From Algoriphagus pacificus (GTDB taxonomy: Bacteria; Bacteroidota; Bacteroidia; Cytophagales; Cyclobacteriaceae), in NCBI RefSeq assembly GCF_017254845.1, contig NZ_JAFKCU010000002.1, forward strand, positions 186,001-250,000: a stretch of 64,000 bases of DNA, given 5' to 3'. The position numbers were made by a program, and so were the translations under genes. Positions 39,395-54,895 of the stretch are shown piece by piece. How positions within the stretch are numbered: position 1 is the stretch's first letter; every line of letters starts with the position of its first letter. The notes beneath the pieces were generated by a model, which had not been told where the DNA came from, ran no database searches, and was given only the letters and a program-made list of their open reading frames with translations.

Positions 39395-39422
39395 GATTTT
39401 GACAATTAATCAGATAGAATAT

Positions 39423-39439
39423 GCCAATTCATTTGCCAA
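39423..39439 (-). promoter_or_regulatory. Sigma-54-like -24/-12 promoter of the T9SS protein gene
   Basis: On the minus strand TTGGCAAATGAATTGGC: TTGGCA at -24, ten bases between the two G pairs, TTGG at -12 (consensus TTGC). The first G pair lies 43 nt before the ATG, a spacing shared with three other promoters in the window. Confidence 0.5.
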
Positions 39440-39480
39440 ATTATAAGTAACTGAAAACCAGCTATTTAAATTTCTATTGA

Positions 39481-39524
39481 TTCCGTATTTGGGAATAGGT
39501 GGTTTGATATTCCAGATTTTGGAA
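39481..39524. promoter_or_regulatory. Pair of TTCC-N7-GGAA inverted repeats upstream of the T9SS gene
   Basis: TTCCA-GATTT-TGGAA (39510-39524) is identical to the copy at 49116-49130. A second repeat TTCCG-TATTT-GGGAA (39481-39495) lies 29 bp away centre to centre. They are 52 and 81 bp upstream of the -24 element, the usual range for enhancer-binding protein sites. Confidence 0.6.
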
Positions 39525-39525
39525 A

Positions 39526-40023
39526 TTAAGCCTCAGATTTTTTAAATGTAAAGTACTTTTGAAGCAGGTAATTGAAAGTCAGAACAATTACAGTAGAGAA
39601 GATTTTAGCAAGGGTTGGTTCCATATTTAAAAACAGAATCAATCCCTTTAAAATCAGGTAATCACTGCCTAAACCTTGTCCCACGACCAACATGTATTTC
39701 AGGAGTTGTTTGCCTGTTTTTTTGGTTCCAGTGGCCGCATTTCGGAATGCAAAATTCTTACTGAGCCAGAACCCTGTTGGTATGGTTGCAAAGAATGCAA
39801 CTAGTAAAGCCACTGTATAAGATGCTATTGAATATCCTGAAAAGATCCAGCCTTCTTTAGGAAGGATAAATTCGTATAGGATGGCAAACAAGAAGATGTT
39901 TAAAGCAGTGTTGATCGCTCCAACAGCTAGGTATGCATAGATATCAAAGGCCAACCATTTTCTGAAGATGGGGTAGAAAAGCTGTAAGAAGCCTTCAATC
40001 CCTCGGTTCAATCGTAAGATCAT
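39526..40023 (-). CDS. GtrA-like membrane protein
   Basis: 165 residues from ATG 40023, two nt after the stop of the glycosyltransferase gene; a longer frame to 40065 would overlap that gene. Four membrane spans (YLAVGAINTALNIFLFAIL, YTVALLVAFFATIPTGFWL, MLVVGQGLGSDYLILKGLI, FSTVIVLTFNYLLQKYF) and the terminal YFTFK are typical of GtrA (PF04138). GtrA proteins are thought to help flip or use polyprenyl-phosphate-linked sugars together with a GT2 synthase, here encoded at the head of the same operon. Confidence 0.85.
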   Translation of the reverse strand: MILRLNRGIEGFLQLFYPIFRKWLAFDIYAYLAVGAINTALNIFLFAILYEFILPKEGWIFSGYSIASYTVALLVAFFATIPTGFWLSKNFAFRNAATGTKKTGKQLLKYMLVVGQGLGSDYLILKGLILFLNMEPTLAKIFSTVIVLTFNYLLQKYFTFKKSEA

Positions 40024-40025
40024 GA

Positions 40026-41201
40026 TTAATTGGTGATAAGTTGGTTGATATGACTTAAATACCATTGAGCAAGCTCACTCATAGGGAGACCTTTGGCAGC
40101 TTTGTAGTTCTGATCCTCGATCTTCTTTCTTTCTTCAGGGTTTTCTACCAAAAAGGAAACCGCATTGGCCAAGCTTTCGGCATTGTCTGTTTCGAAGTAA
40201 GCTCCACCATAGCCTTCTTCCTCTACCACTCGCTCCAAGTCATCTATTTTCGGCAAAATGCAAGCTCTTCCATAGCTTCCCGCCTGATGCAAAATCCCTG
40301 AACTCCCGGTAGTCGTGGTGTAAGGGAAAATCACAAAAGAACTGTCCCAGAAGATTTGAGATACTTTTTCCTCAGGGATATAGCCTGTGTACTCCACATT
40401 TGGCAAGTGAGCATATTTGCTTTTTAAGCTATCGATGTATCCTTTTACATTCGGATTATCTGTCCCTGCCACGGTAGAGGTGAATTTCAGGTGAGGGTAT
40501 TTTTCCTGCAAAATTTCCATCGCATCAATCATCACTTCAGCTTTCTTGTAGGTACCGAATTTTCCAAATGCCATCAGATTGATTTCCTTGGAATCCTCAG
40601 GGACATAATTCCGCTCAGGAAGCTCAAAATTGCCGTGAGGAAGCAGAATCACGTTATTCGCTTTGTATTTGTCTTTTAGGATTGTGACATACTGGGAAAT
40701 GGTCACTCCCACTAAATCCGATTTCAAAATGAATTTGGTCAATTGCTCACCGATCCATAAGAAAAGCTTTCCCTTAAATTTGCTATTTGCCATACCAATC
40801 GTCTCCAGATTCACTGTTTCGGTGATGTTATGAAGAATGGTCACGGAAGGGATGCCGAGCATTTTGCACATCCAAGGAGTCAAGAGTCCCAAAGCTGCAG
40901 GGATTTTACCAGCTCCAAACGTCATGAACTGGAGATTTAAAATCACAGCATCTGGCTGCAGTTCTTTCAGTTTTTTGCGAAGGTTTAATACTGTAAACCA
41001 ACTGTCGAAATCCCAGCAAGGAATGATTTCTAAACCTTCAGTGGCATAGCGAGAATAGTCAGAGTTATCTTCTAGGTTATTGGTGAGAATGTAGATTTTC
41101 TCGATTCCGTTTTTGCCCAAAAAGCTTCTGGTTAAATGGTATCCGTACTCGTTTAAAGTTACCTGACTTGGAGGGTAGGGAGTGATAAATGCTAATTTCA
41201 T
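40026..41201 (-). CDS. Glycosyltransferase family 4 (GT-B fold)
   Basis: 391 residues. The N-terminal Rossmann half starts with MKLAFITPYPP and contains PDAVILNLQFMTFGAG. The C-terminal half has NLMAFGKFGTYKKAEVMIDA (donor-binding start), NVEYTGYIPEEKVSQIFWDS and FPYTTTTGSSGILHQAGSYG (nucleotide-sugar loop), as in GT4 retaining transferases. It would add a sugar, plausibly mannose from GDP-mannose made by the same operon, to a lipid-linked or polysaccharide acceptor in the cytosol. 21 nt separate it from the gene before and 2 nt from GtrA. Confidence 0.85.
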   Translation of the reverse strand: MKLAFITPYPPSQVTLNEYGYHLTRSFLGKNGIEKIYILTNNLEDNSDYSRYATEGLEIIPCWDFDSWFTVLNLRKKLKELQPDAVILNLQFMTFGAGKIPAALGLLTPWMCKMLGIPSVTILHNITETVNLETIGMANSKFKGKLFLWIGEQLTKFILKSDLVGVTISQYVTILKDKYKANNVILLPHGNFELPERNYVPEDSKEINLMAFGKFGTYKKAEVMIDAMEILQEKYPHLKFTSTVAGTDNPNVKGYIDSLKSKYAHLPNVEYTGYIPEEKVSQIFWDSSFVIFPYTTTTGSSGILHQAGSYGRACILPKIDDLERVVEEEGYGGAYFETDNAESLANAVSFLVENPEERKKIEDQNYKAAKGLPMSELAQWYLSHINQLITN

Positions 41202-41222
41202 GATTGTATTTTTTTAAATTTT

Positions 41223-41759
41223 TTAGTCTATAAATCGGATGGCATCCAGTCTCCAATTGTCGCCTTGGAATAAAAGGCTCAAAGCAATTTTGGAGGTTTG
41301 AGTCTCTGTCGAGCCATCAGGAAATGTTAAGTTGAATTCGGCTCTTTGGTCCAGAATATTGCAAGAGAGTCCATCTCTAGACCAAGTTTGTACTTGAATT
41401 GAGTGACTTACATCTTTTCTTTGGATAGAGCCTGAGGCACCTTCTTGGTAGTTTTTTGCAAGATGTAGGTAGAATCGCTCAGTAAATCTTTCCTTGCTTG
41501 GTTTTGGATTGGGATACTGATAAAGCTGATTTAAATGTGCCCAGATCGCAGCATAGTCCTTTTTTAATTTCTCCAATTGCTCTTCCGTAGGCACCTGAGT
41601 AGAAACCACCTCTAGCTCAATAATTGGATTGGAGTTGGCTGCCAAAGAATCATAGCGGAGAAAATAAGGGATGTCATCATTCTTTTCCTGTAACCTGGCC
41701 ATAGAGGCAAGAAGGATTCCCACTATCATCAAAAAGCCTAAGAATATCCATCTAGTCAT
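41223..41759 (-). CDS. Membrane-anchored or exported protein of the mannose operon, unknown
   Basis: 178 residues from ATG 41759. One N-terminal hydrophobic helix (WIFLGFLMIVGILLASMA) is followed by a soluble domain with a helical first half and a beta-rich second half (SHSIQVQTWSRDG, AEFNLTFPDGSTETQTSKIAL truncated here). It starts 2 nt after the lipoprotein gene and so belongs to the same transcript. No family recognised. The N-terminal part (LYQYPNPKPSKERFTERFYL) resembles no catalytic motif. Likely a periplasmic accessory factor. Confidence 0.6.
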   Translation of the reverse strand: MTRWIFLGFLMIVGILLASMARLQEKNDDIPYFLRYDSLAANSNPIIELEVVSTQVPTEEQLEKLKKDYAAIWAHLNQLYQYPNPKPSKERFTERFYLHLAKNYQEGASGSIQRKDVSHSIQVQTWSRDGLSCNILDQRAEFNLTFPDGSTETQTSKIALSLLFQGDNWRLDAIRFID

Positions 41760-41761
41760 GA

Positions 41762-42580
41762 TTACTTGAGAGTTAAAGTTTGAGATGTGATATGGGCAAT
41801 TCTTGCAGTGATACTGGTATTTTTGACCTCCGAAACCGGAAGAGTGAACTGACTATAAGCATCTTGCACGACTGCTTCTATTAGTTTCTTTTCTCCTGCT
41901 TTTTCCATGGAGAAAAGGACTAGCGTGCCATTGGAAACTGTGTTTTCAAATTGATCCAGTAGAGGGCCAGCCTTAATAGTTACAGTTTGGTTTATCGGAT
42001 CTGTGGAATAGGTCAAAGGAATAGTTTTTACTGTTCCCGGATCCACATAAAAGCTGGAAACTGCAGTGCCGGTAATGCCTTTGAAGGTGCCCGTTTTCGG
42101 AGCCAATTCCAGGTAGTTTTCTAGGAAATACTTACCATTTTCCAATTCTGTCAAATTCCCGAATTCGTCAAAAGCATACAGAATTTGTTGCTGAACCATG
42201 GATGAATCTGTGTTAACAGTCTTAGGGCTTCTCAAGTCTTCTAGTTGAATTTTGGAATCTGGGTTTTTTAGATAAATCGGGAAATTAAACTGCTGCTCTC
42301 CTGCCTGAAGTGTGATAAAAGCCGGACCTTCGATAACTCCTTCTTTTGAAGTTAGAGTAATGGTTAACTGGTTATTTTGCTGAGTCAATTCAGGATTGAT
42401 CAATTGAACAGAAGTTTGAATCCAAGCAGTCCAGTTTTTACCCTCAACTTCAAAGGTCAAACTGTCTTGATTGACCACAAAGAAGGAGGCGGAGTTTATG
42501 AATTTTGGTTGGCTGACTGGTTCTTGTTGACAAGCGAAAAGAACCAAAACCAAGAAGAGGAAATAAGATGTTCTTTTCAT
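41762..42580 (-). CDS. Lipoprotein of the mannose operon, unknown
   Basis: 272 residues from ATG 42580, whose ATGA overlaps the stop of the large membrane protein gene. Lipobox LFAC gives Cys17 (MKRTSYFLFLVLVLFAC). The mature part is beta-rich and looks like two or three Ig-like sandwich units (WTAWIQTSVQLINPEL, GPAFITLQAGEQQFNFPIYL, IPLTYSTDPINQTVTIKAG). Tight coupling with the GT-C-like protein suggests that it works with it at the periplasmic face. No enzyme motif is visible. Confidence 0.65.
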   Translation of the reverse strand: MKRTSYFLFLVLVLFACQQEPVSQPKFINSASFFVVNQDSLTFEVEGKNWTAWIQTSVQLINPELTQQNNQLTITLTSKEGVIEGPAFITLQAGEQQFNFPIYLKNPDSKIQLEDLRSPKTVNTDSSMVQQQILYAFDEFGNLTELENGKYFLENYLELAPKTGTFKGITGTAVSSFYVDPGTVKTIPLTYSTDPINQTVTIKAGPLLDQFENTVSNGTLVLFSMEKAGEKKLIEAVVQDAYSQFTLPVSEVKNTSITARIAHITSQTLTLK

Positions 42581-45570
42581 TGTAAATAGATTTCTTGTGA
42601 CAAAAAGCAATGCGGTAAGAAGCTGATGCTTTCTTTGGATGTTGGTTGGTTTTCAAGCAATTGACGCTCTTGACCATTTATTTTTAACTGAATTGGGATC
42701 TGGTTTAAGACTTTCGATTTACCTGCGATTTTTTGGAAAGGAATCTCAAAAGTTGCTTCCAGACCGCTTCTGATAGATTTTGGATAAGTCCAAAGGTCTA
42801 CTTGGATAATTTTTCCATCTGAATCCTTTTCTGAAATCAAGACTCCGGGAATAGTGATTTCATTTGTAAATGGATTTTTCATAGCCGCTTCGAAAAGGGA
42901 AGTTTGAGAGCCTTCTGACAGAACTTTATAAGTAAGTTCTCCTCCTCTGATATAGCCTCGCTCGCTAATGTCAGTTTCCAATTCCAATGAAATGGATTTG
43001 ATTTTTGCGTCTCCTTTTAGTGCTTGAATTCCCAAAGGGATTTCAAACCAAGTGGAAGCTTTTGGAGCTAGGTTGTAATGGATTTTTCGTTGTGGGAAAA
43101 AGCTAACCGTGCTGTCATTTTCATAAGTGACAATAGCTTTCAAAGCAAGTGTAATCGGAATGTTATCTGCATTGATTAATTCTCCGGTCAGGTTCAATTC
43201 TTCGCCTACCTGAACCAGGTTGGCTTGATAAAAACCTGCAAATGGTTTTTTGATCCGATCGTCTTTTACCGTTGGGAAGCTGCTGACTACTCGTTTCCCC
43301 ATTTTCTTGAAAAGGGTATAAGTGTAAGTGATAACCTGCTCCTCAGGGATTTCGAGTTCAAACTGTGGAGGAAGGATAAACCATTTGTTTTCGATCTTTT
43401 CTAAGTTCATTTCTTCCTCCTTTTCTCTTGGCCCCAATGATGTTCTCCACGTGCTGTGAATTCTCATTTTTGCCGAATTCTCTTTCAACTCCAAAGTGTC
43501 GATCTCTAAATGATCCAGTTTCGCAAAAGAAGGCAGAAGACCTCCGTCACTTACTGATTTCTCAAGTAGGTATTGATCCAAACTGTAGGCAGGTCCAGGT
43601 TTGAAAAACTGGAATGCGTCCTCAAATCGCTGGAAATCCAAATGGTTGAAATGAGAATAAATGGTAGTTGCTGGATCTTTTTGCTCATCGATCAACAGCA
43701 ATTCGTAGATCTGGTAGATCAAAAAGCTGCTGAAAAGGATAAATGGAATCCATGCAGAAGTATGAATTATCGTTTTTGGATAGTTAGAAACTTCCTCCTC
43801 TGAGATCAATTCTTTTTGGGTTTTCTTGAAGTAGAATAAGTAAATCAAGGTCATGCCCATTGCCACCATCAGCGTACTGACTGGCAATATTCCCCAAAGC
43901 TTTTTAAGCATTGGATTTAGCTCAGTTGGTTTGATGGGTTGAATAGTGGAAATATTTCCCTTTTCCCAAACCATGATTCCGTTTTCCAATCGGATAGTTC
44001 GATTCCATCCGGAATAAAACAGCAGTGGATCATAGTAGCGGTCGTTGCTGAACACATATTTGAGTTGGTATTTTTCTGCCAGGGTAAGGAAATCATTCAA
44101 AGAAGCCATACCATCTTCCATCAAGTATTTCGCATTTTCCAATCGCTCTACAGCTCTGGAGGTCATTTCAGGAAGTCTTCTTGCTGAGTGGTAATTGCCA
44201 TCGATTGTCGCTGCCAAGGTATTGGAAGAAAGCCAGGCCATCTGATCTCCAAAACCTAAAGTCAGGTATCTCCAACGCATGTGGTCATCTCTGTTCAAGA
44301 AGTTGATGATAGGCTCGATTTCAACCGCTTTAGGCTGCAAAGGACGGAAACTTGCCAAGTGAAAGATGTAAATGATAAAGAGCAAGTAGGAGAATCCGCT
44401 CAATCCGGAAATCAGGAAATGGGAAGTTTCTCCATATTTTTCAGTCCAATAATTTTTAATGGATCCTCCGATGAAGGAAACCAAGAAATGGCTGATATAA
44501 GGAATCGCTATGATGGATGCCCAGAATCCGAATCGGTCGAGAGTCAGGATATTGAAGGCATTTTCTCCCAAAAGCATTTTCGGCAAAGGAGTGGTGCCAC
44601 CGCTACCCAAAAGCAAACAGGTGAAGAATGAAACTGCCCAGCCCAAATGCCTTTTCTTCTTAGTGATCAAGAAAGAAATTGCAGGTAATAACGCGAAGAT
44701 TAGCAAAAGGGGAATGATGTAAAATACCAATCCAGAGCTGGTTTCCTCCAGGAAATTGTCTCTTGATCCATGAGGAATAGAAACCTGTGTAATTGGATCT
44801 GTGCGGCTCCAATACCAGTAAGGAAAGATCAGCGAAATAGCCAAGAAGATGGTGGAGAACCCAAAAAGCAGGATTTCCTTCTTTTTCTTCCAAGCTAGGA
44901 TGATTAGCCCGGCAAGGAATCTTCCAAATAGATTCTTTTTACCTAATTCAGGATTGCCATCTACTAAAGCCATCAGCATAGCTGGAGCAATAAAGAAGAC
45001 CATTCCGAAAATGGCGGTAACATGATGAGAACTTACAGTTACGGCAATAAATGCAAGCGCCATGATCAAATACCTCCAGTCTGAAGTTTTGATGTATTGG
45101 TATAAGAATGGAAGTGCATTCAGCAAAAAGGCAAGACCTGTAAGGGTTGGAACTTGCCCGTAAACGTGAAGAGTTTCTACCAAGGAGCTCAATACTACCG
45201 CCAAGATTGCAGCTACTCCCGCAGTTTGCTTGGAGTAAAACATCTTGGTAAATCGATATACTCCTAAAATCAGCGCTTCGAATACTGTGATGGCATAGAT
45301 GGCAAAAGCGATTTTAAGCGGGAAGATTTTACTGATCAGCGCAATCAACTGGTGAACCAAAGGAGGGTAGCTGATGGTCAGAAAACCAGTGTACCAGCGG
45401 TATTCCCAAGGCTCAAACCAGAATCTGGAATAATGATCCGCAAAAAACATATGCACATAGGCATCATAAGTTTGCGGCAAAGTGAAATACACAATGATGC
45501 CATGAGTCAGGAGCCCTAGGGATAAGGCTACCAAAAGAAGCCTTTTCCCTAGAAATTCACTCCAAAGCAT
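42577..45570 (-). CDS. Large polytopic membrane protein, GT-C / 6-pyruvoyl-tetrahydropterin synthase-related type
   Basis: 997 residues from ATG 45570; a GTG at 45588 would add six residues. The first ~560 residues hold about 12 membrane spans. After the first span comes YDAYVHMFFADHYS and YRWYTGFLTISYPPL, a pattern shared by PTPS-related membrane proteins (PF10131) and GT-C glycosyltransferases with an acidic pair in the first periplasmic loop. One more span lies around 595-615. The last ~370 residues form a periplasmic beta-rich region. Its place between ManC/GT2 and a lipoprotein suggests that it transfers a polyprenyl-phosphate sugar outside the membrane. This role is inferred. Confidence 0.7.
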   Translation of the reverse strand: MLWSEFLGKRLLLVALSLGLLTHGIIVYFTLPQTYDAYVHMFFADHYSRFWFEPWEYRWYTGFLTISYPPLVHQLIALISKIFPLKIAFAIYAITVFEALILGVYRFTKMFYSKQTAGVAAILAVVLSSLVETLHVYGQVPTLTGLAFLLNALPFLYQYIKTSDWRYLIMALAFIAVTVSSHHVTAIFGMVFFIAPAMLMALVDGNPELGKKNLFGRFLAGLIILAWKKKKEILLFGFSTIFLAISLIFPYWYWSRTDPITQVSIPHGSRDNFLEETSSGLVFYIIPLLLIFALLPAISFLITKKKRHLGWAVSFFTCLLLGSGGTTPLPKMLLGENAFNILTLDRFGFWASIIAIPYISHFLVSFIGGSIKNYWTEKYGETSHFLISGLSGFSYLLFIIYIFHLASFRPLQPKAVEIEPIINFLNRDDHMRWRYLTLGFGDQMAWLSSNTLAATIDGNYHSARRLPEMTSRAVERLENAKYLMEDGMASLNDFLTLAEKYQLKYVFSNDRYYDPLLFYSGWNRTIRLENGIMVWEKGNISTIQPIKPTELNPMLKKLWGILPVSTLMVAMGMTLIYLFYFKKTQKELISEEEVSNYPKTIIHTSAWIPFILFSSFLIYQIYELLLIDEQKDPATTIYSHFNHLDFQRFEDAFQFFKPGPAYSLDQYLLEKSVSDGGLLPSFAKLDHLEIDTLELKENSAKMRIHSTWRTSLGPREKEEEMNLEKIENKWFILPPQFELEIPEEQVITYTYTLFKKMGKRVVSSFPTVKDDRIKKPFAGFYQANLVQVGEELNLTGELINADNIPITLALKAIVTYENDSTVSFFPQRKIHYNLAPKASTWFEIPLGIQALKGDAKIKSISLELETDISERGYIRGGELTYKVLSEGSQTSLFEAAMKNPFTNEITIPGVLISEKDSDGKIIQVDLWTYPKSIRSGLEATFEIPFQKIAGKSKVLNQIPIQLKINGQERQLLENQPTSKESISFLPHCFLSQEIYLQ

Positions 45571-45606
45571 GTGATCTTGATTTTTCACTTTTTTAATTCG
45601 GTTTGA

Positions 45607-46692
45607 TTAGATGTATAAAACTCCTTTGACTTCTTTCACCTTAGCGACATATTCTTTGATCTGCTGCTCGTTTTCTTTTTTGCAGATCAAAAGCGCTTCC
45701 GGCGTATTCACAATGATCAGATCTTCCAATCCTCCAATGACCATCAGCTTCTGTTCGTTGGAGTGAACCAAGCAACCTTTGCTGTCTACCAGAATGGCGC
45801 TTTTGCTATTGCTGGCGTTCATTTCTTCGTCTTTTTGGAAATTGTCATAAGCGCTGTTCCAAGTGCCTAGATCATTCCAGGTGAAATCAGAAGGGATCAA
45901 AAACACATTGTTTGCTTTTTCCATGATGGCATAGTCGATGGAAGTGGAAGGACATTTCTCATAAATTTCAAGGATTGCCTCAGATTCATCTGAAGTATTC
46001 AGTTCGGCATTTTTCTCTTGAAATAAATCATACATGAATTTGAAGTGCTCCCAAAATGCACCCACGATATCCTCTGCTTTCCAGATGAAGATCCCTGAGT
46101 TCCATAAGTAATTGCCTTCTGAAAGGAATTCCTTGGCTGTGGCTAAATCAGGTTTTTCTGTGAATCTGTTGACTTTGAAAACTCCAGAATTGCTCTTTTC
46201 TTGATCATATTGGATATAGCCATAGCCAGTGTTAGGGTGATTTGGTTTGATACCGAGTGTCACAAATGCATAATGATTGGCAGTGTATTCCAAGGCTTTT
46301 TTGCAGGTGTCTGTAAACAATTCCAGATCTCCGATCAGGTGATCGCTAGGAGCCACAATCATGTTGGCATTTGGATTCATTTTCTTCAGTTTGAAGGAAA
46401 TGTAAGCCACACAGGCAGCCGTATTTTTTCTTTCTGGTTCCGCTACAATATTGGCTTCTGGCAACTGAGGAAGTTGAGCTTTTACGATTTCAACATACTC
46501 GGATGAGGTAACCACAAAAATGTTTTCTTCAGGGATGAAAGTAGAGAAGCGATCATAAGTAGATTGGATCAAGGTTCTGCCAGTATTCAAAATATCCAAA
46601 AACTGCTTTGGATAGCTGGTTTTACTCATTGGCCAGAATCTGCTTCCGACTCCTCCTGCCATGATGGCTACGTAGTTATTTTGATTTTTCAT
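45607..46692 (-). CDS. manC: Mannose-1-phosphate guanylyltransferase, single-domain
   Basis: 361 residues. Nucleotidyltransferase signature MAGGVGSRFWPMSKTSYPKQ, then NTAACVAYI, APSDHLIGD, NTGYGYIQYD, FTEKPD, LWNSGIFIWK and STSIDYAIMEK, all diagnostic for GDP-mannose pyrophosphorylases. The reaction is mannose-1-phosphate + GTP to GDP-mannose. The C-terminal cupin isomerase domain of bifunctional ManC/AlgA enzymes is missing; a separate cupin isomerase gene is at 53863-54357. It is 15 nt after the GT2 gene. Confidence 0.92.
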   Translation of the reverse strand: MKNQNNYVAIMAGGVGSRFWPMSKTSYPKQFLDILNTGRTLIQSTYDRFSTFIPEENIFVVTSSEYVEIVKAQLPQLPEANIVAEPERKNTAACVAYISFKLKKMNPNANMIVAPSDHLIGDLELFTDTCKKALEYTANHYAFVTLGIKPNHPNTGYGYIQYDQEKSNSGVFKVNRFTEKPDLATAKEFLSEGNYLWNSGIFIWKAEDIVGAFWEHFKFMYDLFQEKNAELNTSDESEAILEIYEKCPSTSIDYAIMEKANNVFLIPSDFTWNDLGTWNSAYDNFQKDEEMNASNSKSAILVDSKGCLVHSNEQKLMVIGGLEDLIIVNTPEALLICKKENEQQIKEYVAKVKEVKGVLYI

Positions 46693-46707
46693 AGGTTGTG
46701 TGATTTA

Positions 46708-47586
46708 TTAATTGGATGATAGAGCTACTTTGAATTGTTTGGATTTCAGGATGCTCTTTGGTTTTCTTTTTACTTGATAGTGATAATAAAGTCCGAGTAT
46801 TTGAAGTGGGATTTTGATGGTGTCTTTCAACTTTAATCTAGAGTCCCCGATCTCTGACCACTGAAGGAGTGGGTATTCCAATACTCCTTTTTGAAGGGTG
46901 GTTTTTCCGAACTTCTGCTGAAGTCTCAAGAAGATCTCTACATCGAAAAGCCAGGGAGTTTCAAACTGATTTTTGAATAGGAAAGGAACAAGGTTGCGTT
47001 GGAAGATTTTAGCGCCACACTGGGTGTCTTGGAAGTTTGCCTTTAGGATGGCTTTGATGATTTTTTTGATCATTTTACTTGCAAATGATCTGCTGTCATC
47101 GCGATTGATATCTGCTCCCAAACGCTGAATTCTACTTCCTACAATCGCACCATATTTTGGATAAGCTTCTTTGTATTTGGCCATCTGTAGCCATTCCTCA
47201 GGATGTGTTGCTAGATCAGCATCCAAAAATCCGATCAACTTAGAATCATAATTCTTGTGGACGAAAAGCATTCCTTGTCTTACAGCTTCAGATTTTCCGC
47301 CATTTTGAGGCATATCAAAAACCACAATGTTACTAGGGCTTTCTGTCTGGATGCCTTTAAGCACTGCCAGCGTTCTATCTTTGCTTCCGTCATTTACCAG
47401 GCAGAGTAAAACCTCTGGATGCTCTTGAGCAAAGGATTTGAATTCCTGGTAGGCAAACCTTTTTTCTTCATTGTAGCAAGGAACTACAATAGCATATTGG
47501 TGCTGAATCTCTGGATCATAATTCAATGCACTCTGGAGCATTTCGCTGATCTCGTTTTTCTGATTTTGATTCTGTAAAGTTTTCAT
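46708..47586 (-). CDS. Family 2 glycosyltransferase, polyprenyl-phosphate mannose synthase-like
   Basis: 292 residues from ATG 47586; an upstream TTG is unnecessary. GT-A fold: YAIVVPCYNEEKRF, LVNDGSKDRT, DxD region IGFLDADLATHPEEW, and GAIVGSRIQRLGADINRD, followed by DTQCGAKIFQR and FETPWLFDVEIFLRL. These are typical of DPM1-like enzymes that make polyprenyl-phosphate-mannose (or glucose) from a nucleotide sugar. It is the first gene of the operon with manC, the GT-C-like protein and GtrA. Its upstream region has a sigma-54-like promoter and shared inverted repeats. Confidence 0.85.
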   Translation of the reverse strand: MKTLQNQNQKNEISEMLQSALNYDPEIQHQYAIVVPCYNEEKRFAYQEFKSFAQEHPEVLLCLVNDGSKDRTLAVLKGIQTESPSNIVVFDMPQNGGKSEAVRQGMLFVHKNYDSKLIGFLDADLATHPEEWLQMAKYKEAYPKYGAIVGSRIQRLGADINRDDSRSFASKMIKKIIKAILKANFQDTQCGAKIFQRNLVPFLFKNQFETPWLFDVEIFLRLQQKFGKTTLQKGVLEYPLLQWSEIGDSRLKLKDTIKIPLQILGLYYHYQVKRKPKSILKSKQFKVALSSN

Positions 47587-47611
47587 CCTTGTTGTTTTTC
47601 GGTGTGCCAAC

Positions 47612-47632
47612 AATTATTCAAACCTCAAACCA
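47612..47632 (-). promoter_or_regulatory. Sigma-54-like promoter of the mannose operon
   Basis: Minus-strand TGGTTTGAGGTTTGAATAAT: G pair, ten bases, GA. It matches the element before the H-NOX gene at 16 of 21 positions and ends in the same GAATAATT. The first G pair is 45 nt before the GT2 ATG. Confidence 0.5.
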
Positions 47633-47685
47633 TAATATTAAAACATTGAAAATCAGATGATTATATGTTGTGTTAATTCTCGTTT

Positions 47686-47719
47686 TTCCAAAAAATGGAA
47701 TAAATTCCAAATATTGTAT
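47686..47719. promoter_or_regulatory. Inverted repeats between the mannose operon and the NtrC-type regulator gene
   Basis: TTCCA-AAAAA-TGGAA (47686-47700) and a degenerate second copy TTCCA-AATAT-TGTAT (47705-47719), 19 bp apart centre to centre. The first centre lies 62 bp upstream of the mannose operon -24 element. The divergent regulator gene starts 44 nt away on the other side, so autoregulation is possible. Confidence 0.6.
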
Positions 47720-47762
47720 TCTTCCCAAACCTTTTTGTAACTTATAGAACTAATGAAATGCT

Positions 47763-49115
47763 ATGAGTCAGTTTAAAATATTTATCGTAGAAGATGATCC
47801 TTGGTATGGTCAGATTTTGGAGTATCATTTAAGTCTGAACCCGGATTACGAAGTACATCTATTTTCAACCGCCAAGGCTTGTTTATTGAAGCTCCAGGAA
47901 AAGCCTGATTTGATCACGGTGGACTTTTCTTTACCGGATTTATCAGGAGATAAACTTTTTCAAAAAATCAAAGAGTATAACCCAACTATCCCGGTTGTGG
48001 TGATCAGCTCCCAAGAAGATATCAGTGTGGCGGTTGGCTTATTAAAAGCAGGGGTTAGTGATTATCTGGTAAAAGACGATGCGACAAAGGACTTGCTTTG
48101 GAACAGTGTGATCAAGATCAGGGAAAATCAATCCTTAAAGAAAGAAGTAGAGACACTAAAAGAAGAATTGGGTCAGAAGTATACTTTTGAAAAGACCATT
48201 TTGGGAAATAGCCCTGTTCTCAAAAGTGTATTTGCTCTAATCGAAAAGGCAATCAAGACTAATATCAATGTTTCTATTACAGGAGAGACAGGAACTGGAA
48301 AGGAAGTAGTGGCCAAAGCGATTCATTATAATAGTGAGCGTAAAAAGAAAAACTTTGTAGCCGTTAATATGGCTGCCATTCCAAAAGACCTGATAGAAAG
48401 TGAACTTTTTGGATATGAAAAAGGAGCTTTTACCGGTGCTGTGAGTCGGAAAATCGGAAAGTTTGAAGAGGCGAGTGGAGGAACCATCTTTTTGGATGAA
48501 ATCGCGGAGATGGATCTCAATCTCCAATCCAAATTACTTCGGGTTCTTCAGGAGCGAGAGCTAAACAGAGTGGGAGGGAATGAGGCAGTGAAATTAGATG
48601 TCAGAGTGATTACGGCTACGCATAAGAATCTCTCCGAGGAAGTCCGAAAAGGGAATTTCAGGGAAGACTTATTTTTTAGGGTAATGGGATTGCCGATTGA
48701 ATTACCGCCTTTGCGGGATAGGGGTTCTGATGTATTGATTTTGGCCAAGCATTTCATTGATGAATTTGTCAAAACAAACAAGATTTCTTCGCTTTCTCTT
48801 TCGGCTGATGCCAAAGAAAAACTCCTGAAGTATCCTTTTCCGGGTAATATCAGAGAGCTAAAAGCTGTCATTGAGTTGGCTGCGGTAATGGCTGACGGGC
48901 AAGAAATCAAGGCTAAAGATATCAGCTTCTTTTCTCTTCAAAAGGAAAACATCTTTCTCATGGAGAATAAGACTTTGCGACAGCATACCTGTGATATAGT
49001 CAATCATTATTTGAAGAAACATCAAGGAGATGTCATCGAAACTGCCAAAGCTTTGGACATAGGGAAAAGTACAATCTATAAAATGATACAGGAAGGGGAA
49101 ATAATCCCGGAATAA
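47763..49115 (+). CDS. NtrC-family sigma-54-dependent response regulator
   Basis: 450 residues. Receiver domain 1-120 with acidic pocket E10-D11-D12, phospho-acceptor Asp54 (ITVDFSLPD) and Lys104. AAA+ domain about 145-385: Walker A GETGTGKE (174-181), sigma-54 contact loop GAFTGA (221-226), Walker [13 protein letters not shown] and arginine fingers in [10 protein letters not shown]-terminal helix-turn-helix of Fis type ([20 protein letters not shown], about 425-446). All parts look functional. It should activate sigma-54 promoters when phosphorylated. It lies next to the H-NOX/kinase operon, and the inverted repeats upstream of four transcription units are its likely binding sites. Confidence 0.92.
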
Positions 49116-49150
49116 TTCCAGATTTTGGAATTTTATTCCGGATATTGGAA
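49116..49150. promoter_or_regulatory. Tandem TTCC-N7-GGAA repeats upstream of the H-NOX operon
   Basis: TTCCA-GATTT-TGGAA (49116-49130) and TTCCG-GATAT-TGGAA (49136-49150), centres exactly 20 bp apart, on one face of the helix. They begin directly after the regulator stop codon. The second centre is 70 bp upstream of the -24 element. Confidence 0.7.
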
Positions 49151-49211
49151 TGAAAAAGAATTTATTAGGTTAAAATAAGTTGTTTTTGATGATTTAAGAG
49201 GGTTTTTGAGT

Positions 49212-49232
49212 TGGCTTGGTTTTAGAATAATT
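49212..49232 (+). promoter_or_regulatory. Sigma-54-like promoter of the H-NOX operon
   Basis: TGGCTTGGTTTTAGAATAAT: GG at 49213-49214, ten bases, GA at 49225-49226 where the consensus has GC. It lies 44 nt before the H-NOX ATG. Confidence 0.5.
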
Positions 49233-49256
49233 AGAGCGACTACTAAATATCACAAT

Positions 49257-49799
49257 ATGTACGGACTGGTAAACAAGTCGATTCAGGAACTCATCACGAC
49301 CAATTTTGGAGAGGAAAAATGGGAGATCATTAAGGCTAATAGTGAAATAGAAATTGATTATTTTATCAGTACGGAACCCTATGATGATTCAATTACCTAT
49401 AAACTTGCTCAGGCAGCATCGATAGAATTGGGGATCTCGGTGGATGAAGTATTATTTGCTTTTGGTGAGTGGTGGGTCTTGAAAACCGGGAATGAAAAAT
49501 ATGGAGGACTGATGAAAGCCGGCGGAAGTAATCTCAAGGAATTTTTGATCAATCTGCCCCTCTTTCATGACAGAATCATGTTGATTTATCCCAAATTGAC
49601 TCCGCCTGAATTTAAAATAGATGAAATCGAAGACCGTTCTCTAGTGGTTCATTACTATTCCAAAAGAGAGGGATTGGTAGGTTTTATGAAGGGGTTATTA
49701 TCAGGTTTGGGAAAACTATTCGAATCACCTGTGGAAATTTTCCATCTTTTTGGAAGAGAAAATGGAGATGATCATGAAGCATTTAAAGTAAGCTGGTGA
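49257..49799 (+). CDS. H-NOX haem-based nitric oxide sensor
   Basis: 180 residues from ATG 49257 (MYGLVNKSIQELI), the standard start of the H-NOX/HNOB family; an in-frame TTG at 49206 would place the promoter inside the gene. Landmarks: EPYDDSITYKLAQAAS, FGEWWVLKTG, proximal haem ligand His104 in LFHDRIMLIYPKL, Pro116, and the haem-propionate motif Y-x-S-x-R (Y133, S135, R137). No Tyr occurs in residues 138-152, where O2-binding members carry one, which fits an NO-selective sensor. It is co-translated with the hybrid kinase (GTGA overlap), its obvious signalling partner. Confidence 0.93.
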   Translation: MYGLVNKSIQELITTNFGEEKWEIIKANSEIEIDYFISTEPYDDSITYKLAQAASIELGISVDEVLFAFGEWWVLKTGNEKYGGLMKAGGSNLKEFLINLPLFHDRIMLIYPKLTPPEFKIDEIEDRSLVVHYYSKREGLVGFMKGLLSGLGKLFESPVEIFHLFGRENGDDHEAFKVSW

Positions 49800-52700
49800 G
49801 CAAAAATGATTTACATATTGCCCTTAAAAAAAGTCATTTAGACAGGACTTTTCCATTTCATTTTGCCATATCGAAAGATGGGAAAATAGAATTTATTGGT
49901 CCGAGTCTATTTAAAATGATGGGGAATTTGGTAGGTCAATATATCGAAAATCTTTTCGGGGTCGAAAGGCCCGTAAATACTACCCTAAATTTTGATTTTT
50001 TATCTCAAAGCCCTTCGAAAACATTCTTACTCAAGCAAAAGTCTGAAAAGGCAACCTTGTTCCGTGGGCAGTTTGAATATTTTGAGGAGCAGGGAATTAT
50101 TATGTTTCTCGGTTCTCCTTGGTTTAGCTCCATCGAGGAATTGGTTTCCAACGAATTGTCAATTTCAGATTTTGCAGCTCTCGATCCTATGGTGGATCTA
50201 CTGCATTTGATCAAAAATCAAGAATTGGTTTCAGCAGACCTTAAGGAATTGGTGGAGACCATTTCCCATCAAAAAGGAAGCTTGGAAAACCTCTCTTATG
50301 TGGCCAGTGCCAATCTCGACGGGATTATATTTACTGATGAGGAAGGGATAATTACCTACGCAAATGAAGGATATCTCAGACAGACGAAATATGAGCTCTC
50401 AGAAATGCTCGGTAAAAACCCAATTGAAATTGGGAGGGGAGAAGAGACCCAAAAGCAAGAATTAAAGAAAATGATTGATTCCTTTTTTAAAAAGGAACCT
50501 TATAAAGTTGAGTTAAAGCATTACAGAAAAGATGGTACTTGGTTTTGGGCAAGGGTAAATGGGCAGGTAGTTTTAGATAAAAAGGGAAATTTTCTTCATT
50601 ATTTCACTTTGGTAGAAGATGTGACCGAAGAGAAAAATTCAAAAAATAGAATTCAGGAATTCGAACAGACTTTTAGACAAGTGCTTGAGTTTTCAGGTGA
50701 CAATGTCTGGGAGCATGATTTTAAAACTGGAAAAACAATTTTTTCAAACAAGGCCAAAAACTTCCTGGGACTCAAATTTGATCAATCAACCAATTTGGAA
50801 GACGTTTGGTATTCTCATATTTATAAAGATGATCTTCAACTGCTTGTTGAAAACGATAAAAAATACAGAGGAGGTGAGATTTCTTCCCACCAATTGGAAT
50901 ACCGGATGCTTCATGAAAATGGAAGCATCAAATGGGTAAAAGATAGAGGAATCGTAATCGAAAAAGATTCCAAAGGATTACCACTGAAAATCATCGGTAC
51001 ACACTCGGATATTACTGACCAAAAAGACGCGGAAAAAGAGCTGATCAATCTCAATAAAAAATTGGGAAGTGTTTTGAACGAGCTCAGGGATGTGATTTGG
51101 TCGGTTTCTTATCCAGACTTTAATGCTGTTTTCTTCACTCCTTCAGCAGAGGATCTTTTTGAATTGGACATGGACACTATCATGGATGGTAAATCCTGGT
51201 GGGAAAAAACAATCCATCCTGAAGATCAACACATGTTAGATGAAATTCATCGGGAATTACATCAACAAAAAGAATACGCTAAAGAATACAGAATCCGAAC
51301 AAAAAGTAATACTGTTAGATGGGTTCAGAACAAAGGAAAATTGATTTTCGAGGATGGTGAACCAGTGCGAATCAATGGGATTTTGGTGGATATCACAGAA
51401 CGGAAGAAAACCGAAACGCTTTTGGAGAATCAGGAGAAGCTAAAAAATATCCTGATCGACATTTCTTCCACTTATATCAATATTGATCTGGATGAAGTTG
51501 ATTCGAATATTAATGCTTCATTGGAAAAGATAGGGGATTTTGTCAATGCAGACCGAGCCTATATTTTTTCTTACGACCTCGCCGCATTTACCTGTTCCTG
51601 TACCCATGAATGGTGCGCTCCAGGCATTTCCCAGGAAATCGAAAACACCCAAAATGTGCCATTGAAATATGTGCCACAGTGGTTTGAAAACCATACAAAA
51701 GGAAAGCCTTTTTCCGTGGAAGATGTATCCCATCTTAAGGAAAATGGCATGGAGGCACTTTATGAGATCTTGGAACCACAACAGATAAAAAGTCTGATTG
51801 CTATTCCTATGATGTTTAAGGATGAGTTGTTGGGATTTGTGGGATTTGATTCTGTGAAAAAGCAACATACCTACTCTCAAAAGGAGATTGATCTCTTGTT
51901 CGTTTTTGCACAAATGCTTGTCAATGTCCAGAAGAGAAAGCAATCAGAAATGAGGCTTTTTCAGCAAGAAGAGAAATTTAGAAACATCATTTCCAATATG
52001 AATTTGGGTTTACTTGAAGTAGATCTTGAGGAAAATGTGCTCCATGCCAACCAGACATTTTGTGAAATGGCAGGCTGGGGATTTGATGAGTTGATTGGGA
52101 AAAAGGCTACCGATTTATTGTTGAATGAGGAGGATAAAGAAAAGCTCCATAAAAAATCTGAAAGTAGGAAAATAGGCGTTTCTGATTCCTATGAACTGAA
52201 ATACAAAAGGCCAAATGGTGAGTATCGCTGGTGGTTTATCAGTGGCGCTCCTAATTACAATGATAAAAATGAATTGATAGGATCTATCGGAATTCATCTC
52301 GATATCACTGATCAGAAAAGACTGGAAGAGGAATTGATTCGCCAGCGCGAGGATGCTGAAAAATCTAAACGGGCAAAGGAAATATTCTTTGCCAATATGA
52401 GTCATGAAATCCGAACTCCAATGAATGCCATTGTGGGTATGGGTGAGCAATTGGCTAAAACAGATCTTTCAAATCAACAGGTAAAATACATCAAAGCCAT
52501 TCAGGATTCAGCGAGCCATTTGATGGTAATTATCAAGGATATTTTGGATTTATCAAAACTTGAAGCAGGCAAAATGACAATAGAATCCATTGGGTTTAAG
52601 CCAAAAAACATTGTGGAGCATGCATTCGGAATTATGAATGCCAAAGCTGAAAGTAAAGGGCTGGATTATTCCATTCTGAATTTTGATGAAAGAATCAGAG

Positions 52701-53866
52701 AAGTATTGATTGGTGACCCGATTCGGATTAGCCAGATATTGTTAAATCTGTTATCGAATGCAATCAAGTTTACTGAAAAAGGGAAAGTGATGTTACAGTG
52801 CCACTTAGTCTCTGAAACTGCAAAGGAACAGGAAATCAAGTTTACTGTCGTGGACACAGGGATCGGTATGGATGATGCTTTTGTCAAAAGTAATTTTGAA
52901 AAGTATGTACAAGAAGATACTACGATTACCAGAAAATACGGCGGAACGGGCTTGGGATTAAGTATCACCAAAGAACTGATCCAGCTGATGGGTGGTTCCA
53001 TGCAGATTGAATCCCAAAAAGGAATCGGAACCATCATTTCCGTCAAGTTAAAGTTCAAAAAAGGGAAAGAAAGTGATCTTCCGAAAGATCTTCCAATCTC
53101 GATAGATTATAATTTCTTGAAAGGGAAAAGAATCCTGATAGTCGATGATAATGAGTTTAATAGGCTTGTGGCATCTACAATTTTGGAGCAGCATGACATG
53201 ATTACCGGCGTTGCTATCAATGGAGAAGATGCTGTAAAGGCAATGAAAACTGAAATTTATGATTTAGTTTTGATGGATGTTCAGATGCCAGTATTGGATG
53301 GAATGATGGCTACTAAGGTCATTCGGGAAGAATTAAATTCATCTATTCCTATTGTCGCATTGACCGCCTTTGCCATGAAGGGAGATCGTGAAAAGTATCT
53401 TTCACATGGTATGAATGATTTTCTGGCGAAACCTTTTCAGGAAAAAGAATTACTGCATCTCATTTCTCGATTGCTGCTGGGTAAACCCTTGGAAGAAGAA
53501 TCAGCTCCTGAAAAAGGTCAGGAAAGTGCGGCCTTATATTCTCTCGAGGAACTGGAAGGGATCGCCAAAGGAAATCAGGAATTCATGGATAAAATGATGC
53601 ATTTATTTCATAGCAGCGTCATGGAATCCGCAGAGCAAGCGGTAGAAGAATTCGAGAAGGGCAATTTTGAGCAAGTAAAGAAGTTGGTACATAAAATAAA
53701 ACCCTCCATCAAAATGATGAGAATTCATCAGATCAGTGAGGAAGTAGTAGAAATAGAAAAAGAAATAGAAGAACAAAAGAAGTCAGATAGGATGATTTAT
53801 TTGATGAATCATTTAGATGAGGTCCTTCATTTAGTCGCCAAGGATTTGAAATCAAAAAACAAATGA
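49796..53866 (+). CDS. HNOBA-containing hybrid histidine kinase with Hpt domain
   Basis: 1356 residues. The GTG start at 49796 overlaps the H-NOX TGA; it is supported because the HNOBA domain begins right after it (FPFHFAISKDGKIEFIGPSL, LFGVERPV, FRGQFEYFEEQGIIMFLGSP, LSISDFAALD; about 18-155). Then come three PAS domains (about 165-280, 285-415, 420-540), a GAF domain (545-715), a fourth PAS (722-845), HisKA with His870 in ANMSHEIRTPMNAIVG, an HATPase with GTGLGLSITKELIQLMGG, a receiver (1111-1230, Asp1161) and an Hpt domain with His1299 (LVHKIKPSIK). No membrane span is seen, so it is cytosolic. HNOBA is the domain that links H-NOX to the cyclase in soluble guanylate cyclase. It probably phosphorylates the NtrC-type regulator and/or the single receiver. 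Confidence 0.92.
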   Translation: MSKNDLHIALKKSHLDRTFPFHFAISKDGKIEFIGPSLFKMMGNLVGQYIENLFGVERPVNTTLNFDFLSQSPSKTFLLKQKSEKATLFRGQFEYFEEQGIIMFLGSPWFSSIEELVSNELSISDFAALDPMVDLLHLIKNQELVSADLKELVETISHQKGSLENLSYVASANLDGIIFTDEEGIITYANEGYLRQTKYELSEMLGKNPIEIGRGEETQKQELKKMIDSFFKKEPYKVELKHYRKDGTWFWARVNGQVVLDKKGNFLHYFTLVEDVTEEKNSKNRIQEFEQTFRQVLEFSGDNVWEHDFKTGKTIFSNKAKNFLGLKFDQSTNLEDVWYSHIYKDDLQLLVENDKKYRGGEISSHQLEYRMLHENGSIKWVKDRGIVIEKDSKGLPLKIIGTHSDITDQKDAEKELINLNKKLGSVLNELRDVIWSVSYPDFNAVFFTPSAEDLFELDMDTIMDGKSWWEKTIHPEDQHMLDEIHRELHQQKEYAKEYRIRTKSNTVRWVQNKGKLIFEDGEPVRINGILVDITERKKTETLLENQEKLKNILIDISSTYINIDLDEVDSNINASLEKIGDFVNADRAYIFSYDLAAFTCSCTHEWCAPGISQEIENTQNVPLKYVPQWFENHTKGKPFSVEDVSHLKENGMEALYEILEPQQIKSLIAIPMMFKDELLGFVGFDSVKKQHTYSQKEIDLLFVFAQMLVNVQKRKQSEMRLFQQEEKFRNIISNMNLGLLEVDLEENVLHANQTFCEMAGWGFDELIGKKATDLLLNEEDKEKLHKKSESRKIGVSDSYELKYKRPNGEYRWWFISGAPNYNDKNELIGSIGIHLDITDQKRLEEELIRQREDAEKSKRAKEIFFANMSHEIRTPMNAIVGMGEQLAKTDLSNQQVKYIKAIQDSASHLMVIIKDILDLSKLEAGKMTIESIGFKPKNIVEHAFGIMNAKAESKGLDYSILNFDERIREVLIGDPIRISQILLNLLSNAIKFTEKGKVMLQCHLVSETAKEQEIKFTVVDTGIGMDDAFVKSNFEKYVQEDTTITRKYGGTGLGLSITKELIQLMGGSMQIESQKGIGTIISVKLKFKKGKESDLPKDLPISIDYNFLKGKRILIVDDNEFNRLVASTILEQHDMITGVAINGEDAVKAMKTEIYDLVLMDVQMPVLDGMMATKVIREELNSSIPIVALTAFAMKGDREKYLSHGMNDFLAKPFQEKELLHLISRLLLGKPLEEESAPEKGQESAALYSLEELEGIAKGNQEFMDKMMHLFHSSVMESAEQAVEEFEKGNFEQVKKLVHKIKPSIKMMRIHQISEEVVEIEKEIEEQKKSDRMIYLMNHLDEVLHLVAKDLKSKNK

Positions 53867-54357
53867 AAACAAAAGCGGAAATATTTGAATTTGCAGAGTC
53901 CCTAGTAGATAAGCTGGGATTCAAAGTAGTAAAACAAGACCGGGAGCGTCCTTGGGGAGGTTTCTTGGTATTGGATGAGAGTCACGCAGCAGAGTTTGCC
54001 CAGGAGTTTTTTCCTGAAGAAGATTTCGAAGCTTTAAAAATCTCTGAAAAGCTAAGCCCAAAGATATTGTTGGTTGCTCCAACTAAGCGATTGAGCTGGC
54101 AATATCATTTTAGAAGAGCCGAAATCTGGAGATGCATTGCTGGAAATGTCGCTGTAGCCACCAGTGATGACGATACAGAAAAGGAAATCAAAACGCTTAG
54201 CAAAGGTGATAAAATCAAATTGAAGCAAGGAGAAAGACATCGATTGATCGGATTGGATGATTGGGGAGTTGTGGCTGAGATTTGGCAGCATACAGATGCG
54301 GCGAATCCTTCTGATGAAGAGGATATCGTCCGCTTGCAAGATGATTTTGGAAGATGA
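53863..54357 (+). CDS. Cupin-type mannose-6-phosphate isomerase-like protein
   Basis: 164 residues, ATG overlapping the kinase stop (ATGA). Cupin core with RPWGGFLVLDE, LSWQYHFRRAEIW (metal His/Glu), KGDKIKLKQGERHRL and VVAEIWQH, matching the type II phosphomannose isomerase fold found as the C-terminal half of bifunctional ManC/AlgA. Expected reaction: fructose-6-phosphate to mannose-6-phosphate. The manC gene 8 kb away lacks this domain, so the two are likely complementary. Its place as third gene of the H-NOX operon ties mannose supply to NO signalling. Confidence 0.75.
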   Translation: MKTKAEIFEFAESLVDKLGFKVVKQDRERPWGGFLVLDESHAAEFAQEFFPEEDFEALKISEKLSPKILLVAPTKRLSWQYHFRRAEIWRCIAGNVAVATSDDDTEKEIKTLSKGDKIKLKQGERHRLIGLDDWGVVAEIWQHTDAANPSDEEDIVRLQDDFGR

Positions 54358-54373
54358 TAATGAAATAAATCTA

Positions 54374-54408
54374 TTCCGTATTCTAGAATAGTTTTCCAGA
54401 TTCTGGAA
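54374..54408. promoter_or_regulatory. Tandem inverted repeats upstream of the receiver/TPR operon
   Basis: TTCCG-TATTC-TAGAA (54374-54388) and TTCCA-GATTC-TGGAA (54394-54408), centres exactly 20 bp apart as before the H-NOX operon. The second centre is 60 bp upstream of the GG element. They lie between the isomerase stop and the terminator of that operon. Confidence 0.7.
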
Positions 54409-54420
54409 AATGAATTTACA

Positions 54421-54459
54421 AAAAGTGCCTTAGAGTCATTCTAAGGCACTTTTTTATTT
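54421..54459 (+). terminator. Strong terminator of the H-NOX/kinase/isomerase operon
   Basis: AAAAGTGCCTTAGA-gtcat-TCTAAGGCACTTTT, a perfect 14-bp stem with 5-nt loop followed by TTTATTTT. Confidence 0.9.
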
Positions 54460-54480
54460 TGGTCTCATATGTGAAATAGG
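54460..54480 (+). promoter_or_regulatory. Sigma-54-like promoter of the receiver/TPR operon
   Basis: TGGTCTCATATGTGAAATAG: GG at 54461-54462, ten bases, GA. It lies 38 nt before the ATG at 54499, just after the upstream terminator. Confidence 0.4.
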
Positions 54481-54498
54481 AGGTTGAAAAATAATTCT

Positions 54499-54885: not shown

Positions 54886-54895
54886 TCCCTTTGTC

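Follow-up and report, generated by a model that had tools for sequence, protein, structure and literature searches.

Tandem TTCC-N7-GGAA palindromes as putative upstream sites of an NtrC-family regulator in an H-NOX/mannose gene island of Algoriphagus pacificus

What recognizes a small family of inverted repeats that precedes several neighbouring transcription units, and what might it do there? The question is raised by a 64-kb stretch of Algoriphagus pacificus DNA (contig NZ_JAFKCU010000002.1, positions 186,001 to 250,000), referred to here as the window. In it, palindromes of the form TTCC-N7-GGAA accompany the genes for an NtrC-family regulator, an H-NOX sensor and a hybrid kinase, together with a mannose/glycosyltransferase operon. 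An initial annotation had placed eight copies at four sites and proposed that the regulator binds them all. We consider it probable that the regulator encoded at 47763–49115 uses the repeats as upstream activating sites, and that these define a compact regulon dependent on sigma54 and controlled through a phosphorelay from the H-NOX protein and the kinase. In the following, exact denotes a match to TTCC-N7-GGAA and spacings are given centre to centre. The four places are named after the units they precede: a gene for a protein sorted by the type IX secretion system (T9SS), the mannose operon (gt2), the H-NOX unit (hnox) and a receiver/TPR unit (rec). The repeats, to which no strand is assigned, are the following.

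39481–39495: palindrome 1 of the T9SS-gene pair, TTCCGTATTTGGGAA; all 7 genomes with the T9SS gene have the exact 29-bp pair
39510–39524: palindrome 2 of the T9SS-gene pair, TTCCAGATTTTGGAA; from pattern match and genus comparison
47686–47700: palindrome of the divergent gt2/regulator region, TTCCAAAAAATGGAA; exact in 10 of 10 genomes
47705–47719: half-site TTCCA whose right half is not GGAA; left half kept and right half absent in 10 of 10 genomes
49116–49130: palindrome 1 of the H-NOX pair; 20-bp pair in 9 of 9 genomes, 8 of them exact
49136–49150: palindrome 2 of the H-NOX pair, belonging to the same 20-bp pair as 49116
54374–54388: palindrome 1 of the rec pair, with one mismatch, TTCCGTATTCTAGAA; from pattern match and genus comparison
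54394–54408: palindrome 2 of the rec pair, TTCCAGATTCTGGAA; from pattern match and genus comparison

Re-reading the sequence returned every repeat at the coordinates first given. Six copies are exact (39481, 39510, 47686, 49116, 49136 and 54394), one carries a single mismatch (54374, TTCC-N7-AGAA), and 47705 proved to be a half-site only. The narrower form TTCCA-N5-TGGAA, under which the family had been described, fits four of the eight (39510, 47686, 49116 and 54394) and fails for the other four. The spacings of 29 bp (39481/39510), 19 bp (47686/47705) and 20 bp (49116/49136 and 54374/54394) hold, as does the identity of the 15-mer at 39510 and 49116. Every exact palindrome of the window sits at one of the four places, in agreement with the statement that its intergenic regions contain no further copy. 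The proposed helix phasing applies to the spacings of 19–20 bp and not to that of 29 bp, which is conserved just as well.

How much of this arrangement could have arisen by chance? The source genome of 5.28 Mb contains 231 exact single palindromes, compared to 116 for the pattern read backwards. Single palindromes are thus unremarkable; the remarkable part is the tandem arrangement. Equally good pairs are not scattered over the source genome: exact tandem pairs (gap 1–25) occur twice, both times in the window, and the backward control yields none. If up to one mismatch is allowed, the 20-bp register contains three pairs in the genome: two lie in the window, and the third (C1:268756) falls within an open reading frame (ORF) of 444 amino acids (aa). 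Allowing up to three mismatches gives 69 pairs versus 24 in the control, so that loosened pairs are not specific and the strict ones alone are informative. A combined pattern, in which a palindrome is followed 39–67 bp on by TGG-N10-GA, occurs at 19 places, compared to 4 for the backward pattern. Fifteen of these palindromes lie within ORFs of at least 150 aa and one within an ORF of 145 aa; this leaves three, namely the window's gt2, hnox and rec sites, as the only ones outside every ORF of at least 100 aa.

A second line of evidence comes from a comparison of 73 Algoriphagus genomes. The regulator is present in ten of them, and the H-NOX protein and a 1003-aa membrane protein of the mannose operon occur in the same ten; the three form an all-or-none module. 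(One of the ten, G048, is split over contigs and was counted only where present; its H-NOX gene is an unplaced fragment at a contig end.) Exact tandem pairs are found in 9 of the 10 regulator-bearing genomes versus 7 of the 63 others (Fisher p=1e-6). Within the bearers, 17 of 18 exact pairs lie inside the module (8 at hnox, 2 at rec and 7 at the T9SS gene), ten at 20 bp and seven at 29 bp. The other eight exact pairs in the 73 genomes never show either spacing, and since the backward pattern also yields eight, pairs outside the module are at chance level. The sole bearer without an exact pair, G069, has one-mismatch 20-bp pairs at hnox and rec.

Conservation in related Algoriphagus genomes, which the initial annotation had named as a check, is observed at all four places: the spacing is the same at the T9SS gene (7/7) and at hnox (9/9, 8 exact), the exact palindrome and its half-site persist in the gt2/regulator region (10/10), and a pair with at most two mismatches is found in 8 of 9 rec regions. 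The ninth pair, that of G028, is degenerate; the promoter, site and pair counts omit it and cover 8 of 9 rec regions. Genus alignments show the distance between two copies being kept while the flanking sequence varies. The T9SS gene offers a natural deletion test that ties pair to gene: it occurs in 7 of the 10 bearers (tblastn, 1e-10), the exact 29-bp pair is found in the same seven, and the pair is absent in all three without the gene. Outside the genus, too, the regulator has sites in its neighbourhood: this is seen in Sediminibacterium and Ferruginibacter, which belong to another family.

Is the regulator equipped to act at such sites?

47763–49115, plus strand: NtrC-family regulator, an enhancer-binding protein (EBP) with receiver, AAA+ domain and a C-terminal GKSTIYK helix (Pfam and motif reading)

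Its receiver (PF00072, E=1e-19) has the phosphoacceptor Asp54 in the translation, and its AAA+ domain (PF00158, E=2e-70) retains an intact Walker A motif, GETGTGKE, and the GAFTGA loop that marks sigma54 activators. The C-terminal segment, the place of a Fis-type helix-turn-helix in this family, matches HTH_17 only, at 19.9 bits against a cut-off of 27, and resembles a helix-turn-helix by eye. Protein identity is 81% to A. mannitolivorans and 94%, over a fragment, to Algoriphagus sp. Ww129. Among the 17 window products scanned with Pfam the regulator is the only recognised DNA-binding protein; two of these products have no family at a threshold of 0.001 and one has a match below its cut-off only. 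The source genome has one match to rpoN (PF04552, C48:68699), the gene for sigma54.

Intergenic alignments over 7–10 genomes, 34 promoter rows in total, reveal a conserved TGG downstream of each pair, with GA, or a less strict version of it, ten bases further on. These elements are listed here with a hairpin that lies among them.

39422–39440, minus strand: candidate sigma54-like -24/-12 element ahead of the T9SS gene; it reads TTTGG-N10-GG in this genome, and 5 of 7 genomes have GG-N10-GA
47617–47634, minus strand: candidate sigma54-like promoter for the mannose operon, reading TATGG-N10-GAA; TGG and TTTGA are present in 10 of 10
49211–49227, plus strand: candidate sigma54-like promoter for the H-NOX unit, reading TTGGC...TAGAA; TGGC is present in 9 of 9
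54458–54476, plus strand: putative sigma54-like promoter of the rec/TPR unit; TTTGG-N10-GAA
54420–54454, plus strand: hairpin resembling a terminator, assigned to the H-NOX unit and situated after the tandem sites and ahead of the rec promoter

The distance from the proximal palindrome to the GG is 43–45 bp at the T9SS gene, 52–54 bp at rec, 54–55 bp at gt2 and 62–65 bp at hnox, rising in steps of approximately one helical turn. Across the 34 rows, T precedes the GG in 32, the -12 G is present in 27 and the A next to it in 25. The -24 half of these putative promoters fits the sigma54 consensus TGGCACN5-7TTGCT quoted in PMC12316311; the -12 half appears as a GA variant or, in the case of hnox, is weak. 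Forms nearer to this consensus are found in two related islands: a metagenome-assembled genome (L017) reads TTGGCACCTGCTTTGAAA at the place of the gt2 promoter, and Sediminibacterium, of the Chitinophagaceae (L018), has TTGGTAAAACTTTTGCTG after the regulator gene and CTGGCAGCTTAATTGAAA before gt1. A scan for sigma70-type promoters returned 30, below the shuffle mean of 37.5.

Some side observations belong to the same regions. The hairpin at 54420–54454, seen by eye in 8 of 9 alignment rows, stands between the upstream sites and the rec promoter, an insulating layout. Just upstream of the gt2 start, TTGGCAC at 47600–47611 (minus strand) is present in 9 of 10 Algoriphagus genomes and reads TTGGCAT in the tenth; TTTGAA-N7-TGGCAC recurs in L017, and TTGGCAC coincides with the predicted gt2 transcription start. 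As a -24 box it was set aside, since by eye there is no -12 element at the right distance. A 28-bp pair with one and two mismatches precedes the gt1/gtrA sub-operon at L017:3342-3384 and L018:3384-3426; unlike in these two islands, gt1/gtrA in Algoriphagus leave no room for a site of their own.

Could the regulator bind the same sites mainly as a repressor relieved by phosphorylation, so that the module would be derepressed rather than activated? We regard this as unlikely. Shewanella HnoC is described in PMC8738867 as a repressor of the hno regulon that is relieved in this way, and the poorly conserved -12 half at hnox would suit such a mode. The same may be said of the position of sites in the wider family, where 19 of 42 upstream sites are no more than 70 bp away from the regulator start codon, which suggests autorepression as a family habit; here, the half-site starts 58 bp before it. 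Yet the GAFTGA and Walker A motifs are intact and rpoN is present, and the pairs lie 43–65 bp upstream of the sigma54-like elements without overlapping them, all of which weighs against repression.

Activation or not, does the palindrome belong to this regulator? Its related loci, the best 80 of 587, comprise 47 from Bacteroidota and 31 from other phyla once two of the same genus (L016 and L055) are excluded. Upstream of the Bacteroidota relatives there are 19 exact matches in 16 of the 47 loci, compared to a shuffle mean of 0.38 (maximum 4) and a single match in the backward control. The 31 non-Bacteroidota relatives have none within 500 bp on either side, where some matches start inside the protein and the upstream 500 bp are shifted by up to about 150 bp. 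A larger set was obtained by adding 100 further regulators of the class from among the matches listed; 139 of 146 were kept after removal of seven near-duplicates, and exclusion of the window itself left 138. L016, L028, L055 and L061 are not in this set, and five of the 139 regions are shorter than 500 bp. Among 2816 arm/spacer palindromes TTCC-N7-GGAA ranks first: it occurs within 500 bp upstream in 34 of the 138 non-redundant relatives versus 0.75 expected from base composition, and provides a starting operator for the regulator family.

The palindrome is not in the eight best palindromes of 23 regulators with an R-type helix that lacks GKS, no exact site lies within 1.5 kb of the AAA+ domain of the other six strong EBPs of the source genome, and none lies in the 13 kb of its second H-NOX locus. 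As it follows the regulator's relatives and is absent at other EBPs and at the second H-NOX, the site is a property of this regulator lineage. The second H-NOX itself (L295:6456-10489, G000:C47) sits in a gene row of receiver, H-NOX, PAS-kinase and FIST without the palindrome, and no second H-NOX match was obtained in any other of the 73 genomes.

These results also bear on the idea that the palindromes are the target of a different DNA-binding protein and the regulator just happens to lie nearby; we consider this highly improbable. A shared gene island would produce the same co-occurrence. However, the motif also follows relatives of the regulator that have no H-NOX or mannose-operon match at 1e-8 in the available flanks (L019, L024, L025 and L043), and the scan of the 17 products (two without a family, one below its cut-off) recognised no DNA-binding domain outside the regulator. 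Might the owner be a CueR-type protein? CueR-type boxes are single sites in the promoter spacer, unlike the tandem upstream pairs seen here. A text search with the site string returned the CueR box of Haemophilus copper genes, and the boxes of other bacteria described there share the core, ACCTTCC-N7-GGAAGGT (PMC10187127); the match looks unrelated and was set aside. That the repeats are RNA-level elements, namely hairpins of 3' untranslated regions, is barely credible: three places (39481–39524, 49116–49150 and 54374–54408) do begin at a stop codon or at most 20 bp past it, but the fourth is a divergent upstream region, the arms are short and the centres A/T-rich, the distance between copies is kept despite varying flanks, and a separate terminator-like hairpin lies at 54420–54454.

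With the repeats read as activating sites, which genes would they control?

37175–39394, minus strand: secreted protein of 739 aa with a T9SS C-terminal sorting domain (PF18962, TIGR04183)
39526–47586, minus strand: mannose operon encoding GT2 (ATG near 47586), ManC, a membrane protein, two proteins without a Pfam family, GT4 and GtrA
45607–46692, minus strand: ManC, matching TIGR01479 positions 4–347
42577–45588, minus strand: 1003-aa membrane protein of the mannose operon
40026–41201, minus strand: GT4 of the mannose operon
39526–40065, minus strand: GtrA of the mannose operon
49257–49799, plus strand: H-NOX haem sensor of nitric oxide (NO) or O2, beginning MYGLVNKS (PF07700, E=6e-48)
49796–53866, plus strand: hybrid kinase with HNOBA, PAS, GAF, HisKA, HATPase, receiver and Hpt domains (Pfam; Hpt just below the cut-off)
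53863–54357, plus strand: mannose-6-phosphate isomerase C-terminal-type protein (PF01050; TIGR01479 positions 357–466)
54484–57595, plus strand: stand-alone receiver (likely ATG 54499) and 899-aa DUF4184/Zn-PLC-like plus TPR protein (ORFs, Pfam and alignment)

For the H-NOX protein, a TTG start at 49206 was replaced by the ATG at 49257 based on alignment and translation. The kinase gene overlaps the H-NOX gene, and the HNOBA family takes its name from its association with haem-NO-binding domains. For the 1003-aa membrane protein, sequence comparison at E up to 1 returned no solved relative. ManC and the isomerase-type protein correspond to the two parts of the bifunctional mannose-1-phosphate guanylyltransferase/mannose-6-phosphate isomerase (GMP/PMI) model TIGR01479, each scoring below the whole-protein cut-off, and are encoded in two separate units about 7 kb apart.

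How might these components work together? In the circuit we propose, one regulator dimer would occupy each TTCC-N7-GGAA palindrome, and two copies per promoter would help the AAA+ hexamer to assemble. The hexamer could then open sigma54-RNA polymerase at the TTGG-N10-GA-like promoters 43–65 bp downstream. Four units would come under its control: the T9SS-sorted protein, the mannose/glycosyltransferase operon, the H-NOX/kinase/isomerase unit and the receiver/TPR protein. The H-NOX protein and the HNOBA-bearing hybrid kinase most likely respond to NO by setting the regulator's phosphorylation state; since the kinase has a receiver and an Hpt match just below the cut-off, a phosphorelay to the regulator is likely. 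With its sites also in front of the H-NOX/kinase operon, the regulator would feed back on its own input, and the half-site beside its gene suggests some autoregulation. The four-unit regulon originally proposed is thus supported by the conservation of the pairs, the motif that tracks relatives of the regulator and the sigma54-like elements, and the regulator's own gene may have to be added as a target. Through the shared sites, the split GMP/PMI parts would stay coordinated. On these grounds we predict NO-dependent control of a mannose-containing surface glycan, in which NO may act in either direction.

Several observations weigh against this interpretation. The excess of single palindromes in the window is weak, with 6 versus a shuffle mean of 2.81 and 4 of 100 shuffles reaching 6. 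In as many as 104 of the 138 relatives the 500 bp upstream contain no exact site; one of these is L022, whose identity is 75%. Class-wide, exact pairs at 18–21 bp are not enriched (8 of 127 regulator-bearing versus 15 of 268 other genomes), even if 6 of those 8 bearers have a pair no more than about 10 kb from the regulator. At the promoters, the GG of each row was chosen by pattern, which makes its presence in 34 of 34 a matter of construction; the -12 dinucleotide is mostly GA and not GC; and at hnox TGGC is present at -24 in 9 of 9 rows, but GA or GC at -12 in just 2 of 9. The residue that follows GKSTIY in the helix is associated with the fifth base of the half-site (17/23 versus 2/18, Fisher p=1e-4), and was set aside as independent evidence because the tree contains only two residue changes. 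As to the isomerase, in G013 it is placed apart and has no exact site in 1.6 kb upstream; the stretch examined in G069 yielded no isomerase.

Can a more general rule be formulated? Tentatively, and with a prospect that we judge slightly below even, TTCC-N7-GGAA may serve as the operator code for a subfamily of sigma54 activators that extends across Bacteroidota. Its fifth base would be read by the residue after GKSTIY (A or G by K, N or Q; C by R), and in Algoriphagus and some Chitinophagaceae one H-NOX-gated activator would run an all-or-none, NO-responsive glycan/T9SS island, with the split guanylyltransferase/isomerase in step via shared tandem sites.

How does this compare to systems already known? 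In the top-ranked matches from the open-access literature, we found no description of an H-NOX target regulon or of a TTCC-N7-GGAA enhancer in Bacteroidota. The sensor, kinase, regulator, operator pairs, promoter-like elements and outputs co-occur here in about 20 kb, a compactness that makes the whole NO-to-glycan circuit testable with few probes and knock-outs. The closest parallel is the HnoX-HahK-SypG-syp pathway of Vibrio fischeri, in which, as two reports describe it, an H-NOX/kinase operon feeds an NtrC-type, sigma54-dependent regulator of a polysaccharide locus (PMC12369376, PMC10162802). Both systems combine an H-NOX protein and a kinase with an NtrC-type regulator and glycan genes, and SypG is described as having two upstream sites at qrr1. 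They differ in phylum and in the several kinases and SypE reported to act in V. fischeri, whereas here a single island encodes the H-NOX protein, the hybrid kinase, the regulator and the glycan functions, and sites are present at the sensor operon as well. The SypG site TTCTCANNNTGMDWN has no exact match in the window, and the overlapping LuxO site TTGCAWWWTGCAA has none there with up to one mismatch. A partial parallel is HnoC/hno of Shewanella oneidensis, where a response regulator linked to H-NOX feeds back on the regulon it controls, as would be the case here; unlike the activator proposed here, HnoC is described as a repressor beside the cyclic di-GMP (c-di-GMP)-related HnoB and HnoD (PMC8738867 and PMC6335343). 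Pfam scans of the 17 window proteins, which leave the rest of the genome unsearched, contain no GGDEF, EAL or HD-GYP. In its protein, the regulator resembles the NtrC1-type AAA+ response regulators (PDB 4l4u and 1ny5), whose receiver-AAA+-C-terminal layout it shares over residues 3–443 (E=2e-84); organism and regulon are different. With the SypG site absent and no c-di-GMP family in the scanned proteins, we class the locus as a new regulon of the NtrC-family activator kind, a member of neither the SypG nor the HnoC system.

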